Shown here: piece after piece, positions 9,966 through 34,882 of the stretch | How the letters are laid out: each line of letters starts with the position of its first letter | Numbering within the stretch: position 1 is the first letter of the stretch | DNA from: Candidatus Coatesbacteria bacterium | GTDB taxonomy: Bacteria > RBG-13-66-14 | Direction: 5' to 3' | DNA: 35,051 nt | NCBI GenBank assembly: GCA_014728225.1 | Contig: WJLX01000004.1 | Coordinates: forward strand, 1-35,051 | Translations under genes and position numbers: made by a program | The notes under the pieces: generated by a model | Seen by the model: the letters and a program-made list of their open reading frames with translations, nothing else | Told to the model about the DNA's origin: nothing | The model's database searches: none

Positions 9966-10162
9966 CGGATACGGCGGCGCAATTTGAACGCCCGTCAGCC
10001 GCGGTGTCGCCGTTGCGCCCGGAACCGGCACGGTTTTTGCATCTCGGCGGCCGCTGACGGCGCCGATAACCGTCCGCCTCCGCAAAAACCGTGCCGGTTC
10101 CGGGCGGGGGTGGGGTGGACGGCGTCTTGGGGTTGCGCCGTTGGATTGCGCCGCCGTATCCG
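9966..10162. repeat. Nested palindromic element 1
   Basis: The outer arms 9966-9983 and 10145-10162 are an 18-bp perfect inverted repeat (core ACGGCGGCGCAAT). The inner arms 10017-10040 and 10082-10105 are a 24-bp perfect inverted repeat containing GGAACCGGCACGGTTTTTGC. The 41-base loop starts ATCTCGGCGG and ends CCGCCTCC. The inner arm and the loop ends are shared with elements 2 and 3, the outer arms are not. It lies 30 bases downstream of the stop of the metallo-hydrolase gene. The rest of 9708-10192, apart from the 11-bp array, shows no gene. Confidence 0.9.
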
Positions 10163-10192: not shown

Positions 10193-11059
10193 TCAGTCGC
10201 GCCGGTAGGTGTTCTCGTAGATCCGCAGCAGGTTGAGTTGATGCAGCCGTCGGACCCAGTCCGGCGCAGGTTTTTTGAGGAAGCCCTCGAGGGGCAGGGC
10301 GTTTTTCCACTCGGCGGGCGGTTCGTCCCAGGCTGGTTTTTCGGCCTCGCGGGAGAGCGTTTCTGTGCCGTCGAGCAACCAGTCGATGTAGCGTCGATGG
10401 TTGTCCAGGGCGGCGAACGAGTGTTCGGCTTCCAGGACGGCCCCGTGACCGGGGACCAGCCGCCGGGGGGATAGAGAGTGTATCAGGGCCAGGGAGCCGG
10501 TGAGCCGCCAGGGGTCGCCCCAGTAGAGGTAGGGGATGGCGGGCTTGTCGGGTCGGGGTCCGGCCAGGACGTTGTCCGAGGCGATGATCAACTCCCGGGC
10601 CGGGAGGCGGACGATGGTCAGTTCGGGACAGTGGCCGGGGGCGTGGATCAGCTCCAGGGTCAGTCCGCCGCAGCGCAGCGACGCTCGGCCTTCGATGAGG
10701 ACGCCGGGCGTGGGGATGGCGTCGTAATCGATCAGCGCGGGGCGGCGGGAAACCATGGTGTACTCGGTGTGCAGGGTTCGGCGCCAGCCGCGGTGGGCGA
10801 TGATCGGGGTGTCGGCGCCGGCGGTCCCGGCGTTGCCGCCGCAGTGATCGGAGTGGCCGTGGGTGTTGACCACGGCGAGGAGGCGGCAGTCCAGCTCGTC
10901 GCGGGCGAAGCGGGCCAGCTCGGCGCCCTGGGAGCGGCTGCCCGTGGTGTCGACGATCACCGCCTCGCCGGCGTCGGCGATGACCACGGCGTTGACGGCC
11001 AGGGGCGAGCCGGTGAAGACGTGGACGCCGGAAGCGGGGCTGGTCGGCGGACGGCGCAT
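10193..11059 (-). CDS. Metallo-beta-lactamase-fold hydrolase
   Basis: This 288-residue protein has the MBL-fold metal-binding motif as NTHGHSDHCGG (His67, His69, Asp71, His72). Further metal ligands are likely in HAPGHCPE, IIASDNVL and VPGHG. The N-terminal strand pair (VNAVVIADAGEAVIVDTTGS) is typical. This suggests a soluble, binuclear-metal hydrolase of the broad glyoxalase II-like group; the substrate cannot be inferred. The C-terminal 60 residues (WDEPPAEWKNALPLEGFLKK) look lineage-specific. Its ATG shares one base with the stop codon of the GH57 gene (TGATG), so the two are translationally coupled and may act in the same process. Confidence 0.85.
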   Translation of the reverse strand: MRRPPTSPASGVHVFTGSPLAVNAVVIADAGEAVIVDTTGSRSQGAELARFARDELDCRLLAVVNTHGHSDHCGGNAGTAGADTPIIAHRGWRRTLHTEYTMVSRRPALIDYDAIPTPGVLIEGRASLRCGGLTLELIHAPGHCPELTIVRLPARELIIASDNVLAGPRPDKPAIPYLYWGDPWRLTGSLALIHSLSPRRLVPGHGAVLEAEHSFAALDNHRRYIDWLLDGTETLSREAEKPAWDEPPAEWKNALPLEGFLKKPAPDWVRRLHQLNLLRIYENTYRRD

Positions 11060-22135: not shown

Positions 22136-22199
22136 TGACGCTCGGGGCCGCCCTCGTGTCTTATCGCTGCCGAGGGACCGCAGACCGCAGGGGCCGGCG

Positions 22200-22265
22200 C
22201 GGTTCTTGCGACGCCGGATCCCCAGCGGGTCCGGCGTCGATGCAAGAACCGTGACGGACCCGCTG
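22200..22265. repeat. Two overlapping, mutually exclusive hairpins; possible relative of the nested palindromes
   Basis: Hairpin A pairs CGGTTCTTGC (22200-22209) with GCAAGAACCG (22242-22251) and then GACGCCGGA (22210-22218) with TCCGGCGTC (22230-22238), with GAT unpaired on one side. Hairpin B pairs CAGCGGGTCCG (22223-22233) with CGGACCCGCTG (22255-22265), 11 bp perfect. Both use 22230-22233, so only one can form. The arm CGGTTCTTGC and the one-sided extra AT resemble the large palindromic elements. Confidence 0.6.
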
Positions 22266-31668: not shown

Positions 31669-31744
31669 CGGTTTCCCGGTTGGAGGGCTTACTGGGGTAC
31701 GTGGAGGTAAGGTTGGGGGTTCCGCTATCGCGCTTGATTTGCGG

Positions 31745-31932
31745 GCTGAGACCTTTGAAAAAACCGATGAGGAACGCCGGCGGCTCGACGATCCGGAGCG
31801 CCGGAACTGGCACGGTTTTTGCGGAGGCGACACCGTCGGGTCGTTGGCTGCTTCGCCGAGATGCAAAAACCGTGCCAGTTCCGGCCGGTGCGGGTTTGGA
31901 CCGTCGGGCGGCCGGTTTTCAAAGGTCTCAGC
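31745..31932. repeat. Nested palindromic element 2
   Basis: The outer arms begin at 31745 (GCTGAGACCTTTGAAA...) and end at 31932; 16 bp pair perfectly, apart from two extra A further in. The inner arms 31801-31822 and 31863-31884 are a 22-bp perfect inverted repeat with GGAACTGGCACGGTTTTTGC. The 40-base loop starts GGAGGCG and ends CGCCGAGAT, so this copy is reversed relative to elements 1 and 3. Its inner arms differ from those by a paired change (C to T and G to A) that keeps the stem. It begins 12 bases after the ftsK stop. Confidence 0.9.
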
Positions 31933-31944
31933 CGTCGGTTGGTT

Positions 31945-33768
31945 TTAGGGTCGCGCCCGCCAATGCCGGACCACGGCCAGGACCGCCCCTTCGTCGACGT
32001 AGCCCGCCTGCAGGCGCAGCGGCTCGGCGGCGCCGACGGGCAGGAACAGCAGGTCCCCGCGGCCGAGGAGTTTCTCCGCTCCGCCCTCGTCGAGGATGAC
32101 CCGGGAGTCGACGGCGGAGCGCACCTTGAAGGCGGCCCGGCTGGGGAAGTTGGCCTTGAGTACTCCGGTGACGACGTCGACGCTGGGCCGCTGGGTGGCC
32201 ACCAACAGGTGGAGGCCCACGGCGCGAGCCATCTGGGCCAGACGGGCCAGTGGGGTTTCGACGGATTTGCCGGTGGCGGCCATCAGCTCGGCCAGCTCGT
32301 CGACGGCGATCACGATCCAGGGCAGCGGTTCGAGTTCTTTGTCCTCGGCGGCGGCCAGTTCGTTGTAGGTCTCGATGGAGCGGCGCTGGGCCTTGGCCAG
32401 CACGGTGTAGCGGCGGTCCATCTCGGCGACCAGTTTCTCCAACTCGACGAGGGCCTTCTGCGGGTCGGTGATCGGCGCGCCGATCAGGTGGGGCAGACCG
32501 GCGTAGGGCGCCAGCTCGACCCGGCCGGGATCGATCAGCAGCAGGCGCAGGGTCTGTGGGCCGACCCGGGAGAGCAGGGACAGCAGCACGGCGTTGAGGA
32601 AGACGCTCTTGCCCGAGCCGGTGGTGCCGGCGATCAGCAGGTGGGGCAGTTTGGCCAGATCGGCGATGACGACGGCACCGTCCTGGCCCAGGCCGACGGG
32701 GAAGGCCAGGGGGCTGGCGTGGCGTTGCCAGGCCTCGTCCTCCAGCAGCTCGCGCAGGGCGACGATGCGCCGTTCGCTCAACGGAATCTCGAGGTTGACG
32801 GTGCCGGCCTCGGAACGCGGCACTACGCGCACCGCCGGGCTTTTCAGCGCCAGGGACAGCTCCGGCGTCAAGCGCTCCAGGCTCTTCAGCCGTTCGCGGG
32901 GGGCCAGGCGCAGTTCGAAGACGCCCAGGCTGGGTCCGCGACGGTAGCCGATGATGTTGGCGGCCACCCCGTGCTGTTCGAGGAAGCGGCGCAGCAGCTC
33001 GGGGCGCTCGTCGGGCTCTTCCCGGGTCGGCTGGACGGCGGCTTCGGCGCCCAGGGTATCGAGGGGCGGCGGGGCGGCGGCGGCGGGCGCGGCCGGTTCC
33101 AGACCGGCGTCGACGGGCTGCTCGATGGATGACGTAGGTTGCTCCCCGTCCGGCGGTCGTTCGCACTTCTCCGACGACGGCGGCTTGGCGGCGCCTTGAT
33201 GATGCTTATCTCGACCCCGTTTGACCGCCGCGGCCATCCGCTTCCCGCCGCGGCCGAAGAACGCGCCGATCTCGCGCAGCCGCAACCCCGTCGCCAGGGT
33301 GAAGCCGAACAACAGCAGCAGGCTTCCCAACAGAACGGTGCCGAAACCCCCCAGGACACTCGTCAGGGAGCCGGAGATCCAGCGGCCGAGCCGACCGCCG
33401 TAGAGCGGCCAGGCCCGCTCGGCGCCGACAAGATCGAAGAATAAGGCCAGGGAGCCGATCAACAGCAGGAAACCCAACAATTGACGGCCCAGGCGTTCCG
33501 TGGCGGCGCGGATCAACGCCTGACCAGCGTAGATCACCACCAGGGCCAGGGCGAAGCCCAGGTAGCCCACCAGCCAGAGCTGGGCGCGACCCCAACTCAG
33601 GCCCCAGGCGCCGACGAAAGACGAGTCTGTGTCTGTCAACGTGGGCGGGGCGCCGGCGTTAAGGTAGGCCGCCAGGCAGACGAAGCTGAACAGTCCGGCC
33701 AGGATCAAGACGATCCCCCAGCCGAGGCTGCGTTCACTGCGCTTGCGCTTCTTGCGACGTTTGGCCAT
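31945..33768 (-). CDS. ftsK: FtsK/SpoIIIE-type DNA translocase lacking the gamma domain
   Basis: FtsK pumps DNA through the closing septum during chromosome segregation. The 607-residue protein has a basic start (MAKRRKKRKR), four membrane segments (about 17-35, 64-84, 97-113 and 141-160), a Pro/Ala-rich linker to about 250 and then the alpha and beta motor domains. Walker A is GTTGSGKS (381-388) and Walker B ends in Asp490-Glu491 (WIVIAVDELAEL). ATQRPSVDVVTGVLKANFPSR and GRGDLLFLP are family blocks. The common DPK of the motor is DPG here (413-415). The sequence stops right after the motor (VVRHWRARP), so the winged-helix gamma domain that reads KOPS and contacts XerD is missing. Palindromes lie on both sides. 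Confidence 0.94.
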   Translation of the reverse strand: MAKRRKKRKRSERSLGWGIVLILAGLFSFVCLAAYLNAGAPPTLTDTDSSFVGAWGLSWGRAQLWLVGYLGFALALVVIYAGQALIRAATERLGRQLLGFLLLIGSLALFFDLVGAERAWPLYGGRLGRWISGSLTSVLGGFGTVLLGSLLLLFGFTLATGLRLREIGAFFGRGGKRMAAAVKRGRDKHHQGAAKPPSSEKCERPPDGEQPTSSIEQPVDAGLEPAAPAAAAPPPLDTLGAEAAVQPTREEPDERPELLRRFLEQHGVAANIIGYRRGPSLGVFELRLAPRERLKSLERLTPELSLALKSPAVRVVPRSEAGTVNLEIPLSERRIVALRELLEDEAWQRHASPLAFPVGLGQDGAVVIADLAKLPHLLIAGTTGSGKSVFLNAVLLSLLSRVGPQTLRLLLIDPGRVELAPYAGLPHLIGAPITDPQKALVELEKLVAEMDRRYTVLAKAQRRSIETYNELAAAEDKELEPLPWIVIAVDELAELMAATGKSVETPLARLAQMARAVGLHLLVATQRPSVDVVTGVLKANFPSRAAFKVRSAVDSRVILDEGGAEKLLGRGDLLFLPVGAAEPLRLQAGYVDEGAVLAVVRHWRARP

Positions 33769-33804: not shown

Positions 33805-33833
33805 ATCATAGGAGGGGGCGTCAGGGGCGTCAC
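33805..33833 (-). promoter_or_regulatory. Possible ftsK promoter with its -35 box in nested palindrome 3
   Basis: On the minus strand GTGACG (33833-33828) and TATGAT (33810-33805) are 17 bp apart. The -35 hexamer lies in the outer arm of element 3. Transcription would start near 33798, 30 bases before the ATG. Confidence 0.4.
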
Positions 33834-34028
33834 CTTTGAAAATTTAGCTAATCGTTGTTTCGTAGCGCTCCCGTGGGTGTTGGCGCCGGAACCGGCACGG
33901 TTTTTGCATGTCGGCGCGGCGGCGGGCGTCTCGCGGGTTGCGCCTCCGCAAAAACCGTGCCGGTTCCGGCGCCGAGGTTGCGGAGGTAGGCGGGGCGGGT
34001 GTGGCCGTAATTTTTCAAAGGTGACGCC
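33826..34028. repeat. Nested palindromic element 3
   Basis: The outer arms 33826-33842 and 34012-34028 are a 17-bp perfect inverted repeat (GGCGTCACCTTTGAAAA), sharing ACCTTTGAAAA with element 2. The inner arms 33882-33907 and 33948-33973 are a 26-bp perfect inverted repeat containing GGAACCGGCACGGTTTTTGC. The 40-base loop starts ATGTCGGCG and ends GCGCCTCC. It begins 11 bases after the uppP stop and reaches to 57 bases before the ftsK start. Confidence 0.9.
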
Positions 34029-34039
34029 GGCGGTCCTGA

Positions 34040-34882
34040 TCAGGCGATGGCGATGGTCACCACGCCGGCGATCAGGCAGTAGAAGCCGAAGAGCCAGAAG
34101 CGTCCGCTCTGCACGGTGCCCATGACCACGCGGATGGCTCCCAGGGCGGTCAGGAAGGCGGCCAGGCCGCCGACGAAGTAAACGGGCCAGGACAGCCAGT
34201 CGGCGCTTTGCAGCACCCCGCCCAGTTCGAGCAGGTTGGCGCCGAGGATCGCCGGCAGGGAGAGCAGGAAGCTGAACTCGGCGGCCCGGCGCTGTTGGAT
34301 GTCGAGGTGGAGTCCGGCGGCGATAGTTGAGCCGCTGCGGCTGATGCCGGGCAGGATCGCCAGGGCCTGGGCGCCGCCGATGGCGAGGGCGCGCCACCAG
34401 TTGGGCGCCGGCGCCGTGTCGTCTTCCGGGCTGTTCTCGGGTTTGCGCTGGCGGCGCAGGCGCAGGCTGAAGAGGATCACCGCCGTCACCAGGAGCATCC
34501 AGCCGGCCAGCTCGGGCGACTGGAAGGCCCGTTCGATGTCGCTCTTCCAGAGCAGGCCGACGGCCACCGCGGGGAGGGTGCCGATGATGATCCCGACGAG
34601 GAGTTTGCCCAGGCGCTTGTCGCCGGAGGGTAGATCCTTGCCGGTCACGGCGCGCCAGGGGTTGGCGACGAGAACGCGCAACAGGTTGATGAAGCGCCGG
34701 CCGAAGTAGACCATCACGGCCAGGGCCGTGGCGAAGTGCAGAAAGACGCCGAAGGCCAGGTTGCCTTCCGGGGTGACGCCCAGCAGTTCGCCGACGATGA
34801 CCAGATGCCCCGAGCTGGAGATGGGCAGGAACTCGGTGGCGCCCTGGACGAAGCCCAGGGTCGCCGCCTGGAAGAGGTTCAA
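34040..34882 (-). CDS. uppP: Undecaprenyl-diphosphatase
   Basis: UppP (BacA) recycles the undecaprenyl carrier lipid needed for peptidoglycan and other surface glycans, by removing one phosphate at the membrane. The 280-residue protein has both signature regions: VQGATEFLPISSSGHL (12-27, with Glu17) and LPGISRSGSTIAAGL (about 181-195), plus seven or eight membrane segments. The start is TTG at 34882, supported by GGAAGGA eight bases upstream and by the family N-terminus. A charged loop (RRQRKPENSPEDD) at about 144-156 is longer than usual. It is followed by nested palindrome 3 and then ftsK. Confidence 0.94.
   Translation of the reverse strand: MNLFQAATLGFVQGATEFLPISSSGHLVIVGELLGVTPEGNLAFGVFLHFATALAVMVYFGRRFINLLRVLVANPWRAVTGKDLPSGDKRLGKLLVGIIIGTLPAVAVGLLWKSDIERAFQSPELAGWMLLVTAVILFSLRLRRQRKPENSPEDDTAPAPNWWRALAIGGAQALAILPGISRSGSTIAAGLHLDIQQRRAAEFSFLLSLPAILGANLLELGGVLQSADWLSWPVYFVGGLAAFLTALGAIRVVMGTVQSGRFWLFGFYCLIAGVVTIAIA

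Follow-up and report, generated by a model that had tools for sequence, protein, structure and literature searches.

Background

ERIC, BIME and other intergenic repeats are dispersed and palindromic and lie between genes. The family described here differs from them in sequence and architecture, the comparison at sequence level having been made through Rfam. REPINs are doublets of REPs that RAYT transposases mobilise. Inverted and hairpin-forming, they occur as hundreds of intergenic copies whose arms are conserved and whose interior is variable and often paired, and their hairpins also show compensatory changes (PMC3116915); the stems of REPs are adjoined by a GTAG or CGTC tetranucleotide, according to PMC3733652. 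The sites bound by σ54 (RpoN) are another point of comparison, and many of them are located away from operon starts (PMC3844500). Finally, template switching during replication homogenises the arms of inverted repeats, as outlined in PMC8604942, PMC7202029 and PMC8794818.

The repeats reported here share features with each of these systems. Like REPINs, they are intergenic, multi-copy inverted doublets able to form a hairpin. With σ54 promoters and binding sites they have the core GGCACG-N4-TTGC in common, and one of the four site types reaches a score (19.7) in the range of Salmonella promoters. As in the template-switch quasipalindromes of these sources (PMC8604942, PMC7202029, PMC8794818), the arms are identical within a copy whatever their letters. 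Unlike with REPINs, however, no RAYT was detected in two of the genomes that carry the repeats (G000 and G001), their arms are σ54-type sites, and they carry an extra outer inverted repeat of copy-specific sequence within a fixed span of 194 bp. MITEs differ in that here the outer arms match within and not between copies, and no target-site duplication was seen. Compared with σ54 sites, these are arranged face to face in perfect palindromes, number hundreds per genome, are located at gene ends and often have C at -26 and G at -11. Template switching is a mutational mechanism and no repeat family, and it leaves the core, the outer motif and the length unexplained. Among the described repeat families we found none with a nested palindrome of facing σ54-type sites.

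Results

Three nested palindromes in the window

The window, a stretch of 35,051 nucleotides, is contig 4 of a Candidatus Coatesbacteria MAG (source genome, G000; 2.96 Mb, 181 contigs, 96.8% complete). It contains three elements, in all of which the inner arms form perfect inverted repeats (25, 23 and 26 bp). The outer arms of element 1 are copy-specific; the left one, CGGATACGGCGGCGCAAT (9966-9983, + strand), is 18 nt long and 100% complementary to the right one (10145-10162, - strand), which is located 30 nt from the stop of a gene for a metallo-beta-lactamase-fold protein (10193-11059, - strand). Of the two 25-bp inner arms, the left (10016-10040, + strand) holds a rightward σ54-type site of the C variant (CGGCACG-GTTT-TTGC) on the ATCTC side and the right (10082-10106, - strand) a leftward one; they enclose a polar loop of 41 nt in + direction (ATCTCGGCG...CGCCTCC, 10041-10081).

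In element 2 the left outer arm GGCTGAGACCTTTGAAAA (31744-31761, + strand) fits the family motif GACCTTTGAAAAAC and is paired over 18/18 bp with the right outer arm (31916-31933, - strand), 11 nt from the stop of ftsK (31945-33768, - strand). The left inner arm (31800-31822, + strand; 23 bp) is a T variant (TGGCACG-GTTT-TTGC) on the GGAGG side and scored 14.2 on a Salmonella σ54 matrix. Across a 40-nt loop in - direction (31823-31862) follows the right inner arm (31863-31885, - strand), a T variant on the ATCTC side; its score of 19.7 falls among those of the training promoters, and it is the best σ54-like site in any of the three elements.

Element 3 has a left outer arm of 21 bp, GGCGTCACCTTTGAAAATTTA (33826-33846, + strand), which is 95% paired with the right outer arm (34008-34028, - strand), 11 nt from the stop of a BacA-family gene (34040-34882, - strand). 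Its inner arms of 26 bp (33882-33907, + strand, C variant; 33948-33973, - strand) flank a 40-nt loop in + direction (ATGTCGGCG...CGCCTCC, 33908-33947). Folded as single-stranded DNA, elements 1, 2 and 3 gave z values of -8.6, -10.6 and -9.2 relative to shuffled sequence.

The sequence-only reading of the window had described perfect inner repeats of 22-26 bp, a loop of 40-41 bases whose asymmetric ends give each copy a direction, an inverted repeat at the outer edges and a placement 11-30 bases after stop codons. The measured values agree with all of these, elements 1 and 3 pointing in + and element 2 in - direction. The coordinates given there hold for elements 1 and 3; the edges of element 2 are 31744 and 31933 rather than 31745 and 31932. 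A degenerate facing pair (CCGGCGCGGTTCTTGC ... GCAAGAACCGTGACGG), the loop of which is itself a hairpin, was seen at 22190-22261 of the window, and a similar pair at L089:4274-4341; these may be copies in decay or may form a second class.

A family of fixed length in the source genome

With up to 2 mismatches allowed, the 20-base arm had 281 forward and 265 reverse matches in the source genome and the reversed control pattern none, far more than chance would give, so that the family proposed from three copies extends over the genome. A stricter paired-arm pattern matched 244 times. Since some arm matches are halves of copies cut at contig ends, the family size is given as about 250-280 copies; nine arms in the first 745 kb were unpaired, each of them at a contig end.

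Copies were studied in detail in extracted stretches totalling 1.05 Mb. Of the contigs examined in this work, L087 and L159 are entirely or almost entirely masked as N. The length from outer arm to outer arm had a median of 194 bp (interquartile range 190-199, 5-95% range 180-203). The inner arms measured 22-32 bp in nearly every copy, with few intermediate lengths, and the cores are homologous and polar, with identities of up to 96%. The spacers that separate the outer from the inner arms (about 30-45 nt) were unrelated among copies except for a few short matches, and recent transposition as a 194-bp unit was rejected on these grounds. Spacers that are unrelated, together with a fixed length, a conserved core and pairing of the arms, suggest old, constrained copies and not a recent burst. 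Only 11 other inverted repeats (arm of at least 14, loop of more than 12 nt) were detected in the 1.05 Mb, several of them diverged elements.

Expectation-maximisation (EM) returned the outer motif GGGCGACCTTTGAAAAACAG in the source genome and GGCGAGACCTTGGCCAAACC in a genome of the same family and a different Coatesbacteria genus (G001). The distance from the outer site to the inner GG peaked at about 55 and 64 in the source genome and at about 54 and 66 in G001, where the outer distances on the two sides are usually 8-17 bp apart, with a total of about 120. Such distances are suggestive of helical phasing, the Rayleigh values being near-equal for neighbouring periods and therefore compatible with two peaks as well as with a true period. 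One copy of the source genome (L073:1894, contig 10) has an arm and loop of the G001 type (GGCACGTTTCTTGC, ...CCCCGCCCTGCT), both types being present in one genome.

Inner arms resemble σ54 sites

The inner arm GGAACYGGCACGGTTTTTGC holds the σ54 core GGCACG-N4-TTGC, and GGAACTGGCACGGTTTTTGCA includes TGGCACG-N4-TTGCA; the T-variant arm fits the core consensus. The inner palindrome thus consists of two σ54-type sites that face each other at a distance of about 40 nt. This likeness, the matching of arms copy by copy and the relatives in another genus and another phylum go beyond the sequence-only reading of the window. Attention was drawn to σ54 by two genomes of the same family, in which near matches to the arm precede a gene that was read by eye as hypA. 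All typical arms hold GGCACG-N4-TTGC, and with it GG at -25/-24 and GC at -13/-12 as in σ54 promoters. A matrix was built from 27 Salmonella sites (PMC3844500), of which the weakest scored 16.7. Over 1.05 Mb of the source genome it gave 47 matches of at least 18 bits, 38 of them within elements and none inside genes. One of the four site types, the T variant on the ATCTC side, reached the training range (19.7); the others scored 14.2, 13.0 and 7.5, and the latter two, the C variants, are below every training site. C occupied position -26 in 60 of 104 copies, whereas unpaired sites of the source genome carry T there, and on the GGAGG side position -11 is a G.

Unpaired σ54-type sites were few in the source-genome stretches and were mostly located directly upstream of genes; the N-terminal residues, read by eye, suggest that these include response-regulator, small heat-shock, Clp-like and sigma-factor-like proteins. 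A motif-free scan for inverted repeats in the G001 stretches recovered almost only TGGCAC-N5-TTGC arms. The rpoN gene was found in G000, G001 and G041, and enhancer-binding proteins (PF00158) showed no expansion, with 10 matches in G000, 9 in G001 and 10 in the element-free G003. We also considered that the outer motif is an activator site in common with ordinary σ54 promoters; upstream of such promoters its best scores (9.9 and 9.5) did not exceed a random 95th percentile of 9.9, and the idea was dropped. On contig 26 of the source genome, a copy (L044:11060-11140) is located about 95 bp after an rpoN match (10493-10966); the gap after rpoN measures 376 bp there, element included, and 88 bp at the orthologous position of G001, which is without an element.

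Arms match almost perfectly within each copy

When the C/T position of the arms was compared in 104 copies, 60 were CC, 44 were TT and none was CT. Departures from the arm consensus were identical in both arms in 39 cases and confined to one arm in 15, the latter clustered in a handful of diverged copies. The outer inverted repeat was loosely conserved across copies and near-perfectly paired inside each, the pairing score averaging 18.9 within a copy and 7.6 across copies, and complementarity fell to background straight past the stem. Over 1796 bp of outer arm, 25 mismatches were counted, of which 9 were transitions and 16 transversions; as arms were defined by matching, this absolute rate is biased downwards, whereas C/T concordance and the comparison across copies are unaffected. 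Selection on an RNA structure should leave wobble pairs, and these were not enriched, which points to palindromes that are kept at the DNA level rather than as RNA structure.

Elements are mostly located at gene ends

Genes were called with a simple codon-based caller, with approximate starts. Every sampled copy was intergenic. Among gaps of at least 150 bp, elements were present in 60 of 214 tandem, 21 of 66 convergent and 10 of 79 divergent gaps. The depletion of divergent gaps (odds ratio 2.8, p = 0.003, one of several analyses chosen after seeing the data) upholds the link to gene ends noted in the window. Loop polarity was unrelated to gene strand: among the 60 copies in tandem gaps, 24 had the sense direction (p = 0.16), and loop polarity as promoter direction was discarded. 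Spacings below 2 kb made up 4.6% of element spacings and 15.6% of those between random intergenic slots, a difference to which MAG contig filtering may contribute.

The suggestion that elements form transcript ends or stabilise transcripts was not supported, considering the terminator-like stems little above shuffled level, the lack of wobble enrichment and the polarity that is unrelated to gene strand. Outward intrinsic terminators in the spacers were convincing by eye (L033, L037), but their frequency was 0.43 as compared to 0.36 in shuffled sequence. Terminators were less frequent at element-bearing tandem ends (2 of 61) than at other tandem ends (32 of 249), a pattern that convergent ends did not mirror (10/42 and 23/114); as a sign that elements replace terminators this is a weak hint, limited to tandem gaps, and the idea was rejected. 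Likewise, a pair of small RNAs starting at the loop stem was rejected, as the stem was not found in G001.

Known repeat families, mobile elements and relatives

The RAYT transposase (Y1_Tnp, PF01797) had no match in the source genome (96.8% complete) or G001, as against nine of the phylum's 14 genomes that did have matches. No Rfam family matched the window at gathering score. Both results are in line with the earlier statement that the elements match no known repeat family. Inspection of the invariant arm GGAACYGGCACGGTTTTTGC showed no apparent GTAG or CGTC. Direct repeats flanking the outer arms were near expectation, giving no sign of target-site duplication, and in the sampled stretches no larger element sharing these ends was seen, unpaired arms being located at contig ends only. 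Outer arms as pre-existing hairpin targets were considered and rejected, with almost no core-less outer repeat in 1.05 Mb of the source genome and one in G001. The latter (L152:3345-3438) is an outer-type inverted repeat, GCGGAGACCTTTGCCC, with a loop of 62, and may be an empty site or the product of an excision.

G001 contains at least 135 cores, with the same core motif, a different N4, arms such as GGCGTTGGCACGTTTCTTGC and outer arms of its own; the remaining genomes of the same family have no or one paired core each. Three G001 cores (L172:7089-7205, L110:293-407, L171:2151-2263) have loops of 73-75 nt instead of the usual 41-44, about three helical turns more. In about 65 syntenic gene pairs of the two genomes, one element site was shared, five were specific to G001 and five to the source genome, so that element positions turn over.

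Outside the phylum, a scan of public genomes identified 15 copies in the Gemmatimonadales MAG Dive96_bin10.104, among the matches listed, and one of five relatives searched has 14 copies. The N4 varies from copy to copy and is the same in both arms in 29 of 29; as these copies were found by a motif search with N4 left free, the conservation of the motif itself is not independent evidence. Their arm scored 5.2 on the Salmonella matrix, no outer arms were detected in the copies found by this search, and 7 copies were located in convergent, 6 in tandem and none in divergent gaps. No copies of the source-genome type were found in the plasmids, phages and viral contigs searched. Some IMG/VR viral contigs (L323-L398; e.g. 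L337:3662-3778, L339:419-595, L362:293-599) contain clustered facing GGCACG-N4-TTGC sites whose N4, unlike that of the bacterial elements, is usually unmatched between arms (mostly 10-12 of 14 identical).

Discussion

We favour, at a probability of about 0.38, the reading that the element is a symmetric docking site for σ54 polymerase that would bound gene ends and whose arms template switching would keep identical. The inner sites would be occupied by σ54 RNA polymerase or its DNA-binding domain and the outer sites by a partner protein. Judging from its location, the symmetric complex would mostly not fire and would act as a two-way transcription boundary or roadblock, and it may also be a source of conditional antisense RNA. 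Template switching would copy one arm onto the other, so that the nested palindromes stay perfect while the spacers drift. Ordinary promoters are unlikely, because in a convergent gap neither of the two sites would have a gene to drive. The wider claim, a new genome-wide class of boundary in which facing σ54 docking pairs with phased partner sites mark gene ends in at least two phyla and have their symmetry rewritten by template switching, appears rather unlikely in this full form.

A non-autonomous mobile palindrome of REPIN or MITE type comes close behind the docking site, because positions turn over and the polar cores are homologous. Possible, if doubtful, it would involve an enzyme that recognises the inner hairpin, the likeness to σ54 sites being incidental or hitch-hiked and the location at 3' ends a matter of tolerance. 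Core identities of up to 96%, one shared against five plus five unshared sites in the syntenic pairs, random orientation, the core-less outer repeat of G001 and the compensatory hairpin changes that REPINs show too (PMC3116915) are in agreement with mobility; it is less easily reconciled with the lack of a Y1/RAYT transposase in G000 and G001, of target-site duplications, of recent sibling copies with related spacers and of a longer element with the same ends (unpaired arms being seen at contig ends only), or with outer arms that vary among copies and match inside each.

If the T-variant site on the ATCTC side, which scores as known promoters do, were active, the element could be a working bidirectional σ54 promoter producing short RNAs both ways from within the loop, where starts would be expected at the stem CCGTTA/TAACGG of the source genome. 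This is quite improbable in view of the convergent gaps without a downstream sense gene, the G at -11 on the GGAGG side, outward terminators barely above shuffled level, the absence of the loop stem in G001 and a sense orientation in only 24 of 60 cases. Still less probable is a structured RNA that serves 3' untranslated regions as a terminator, a stabiliser or a processing site, which the adjoining stop codons and the strong predicted folding would fit; the arms are perfect in Watson-Crick terms without enrichment of wobble pairs (9 transitions and 16 transversions among the outer-arm mismatches), orientation does not follow gene strand, there is no enrichment of terminator-like stems and the window has no Rfam match. 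We give equally little credence to a chromosome-organising or nucleoid-associated site independent of σ54: hundreds of copies that avoid close neighbours would suit such a role, but the neighbour gap can arise from MAG contig filtering and the σ54 core would be left unexplained.

Quite apart from what it does, the family offers a clean record, made by nature, of how arms are homogenised. As its letters vary from copy to copy and yet agree near-perfectly within a copy, selection and template switching can be tested against each other across strains. If the arms bind σ54 polymerase, a single bacterium with some eight to ten activator genes would have several hundred docking pairs outside its promoters, and the known use of σ54 would be extended.
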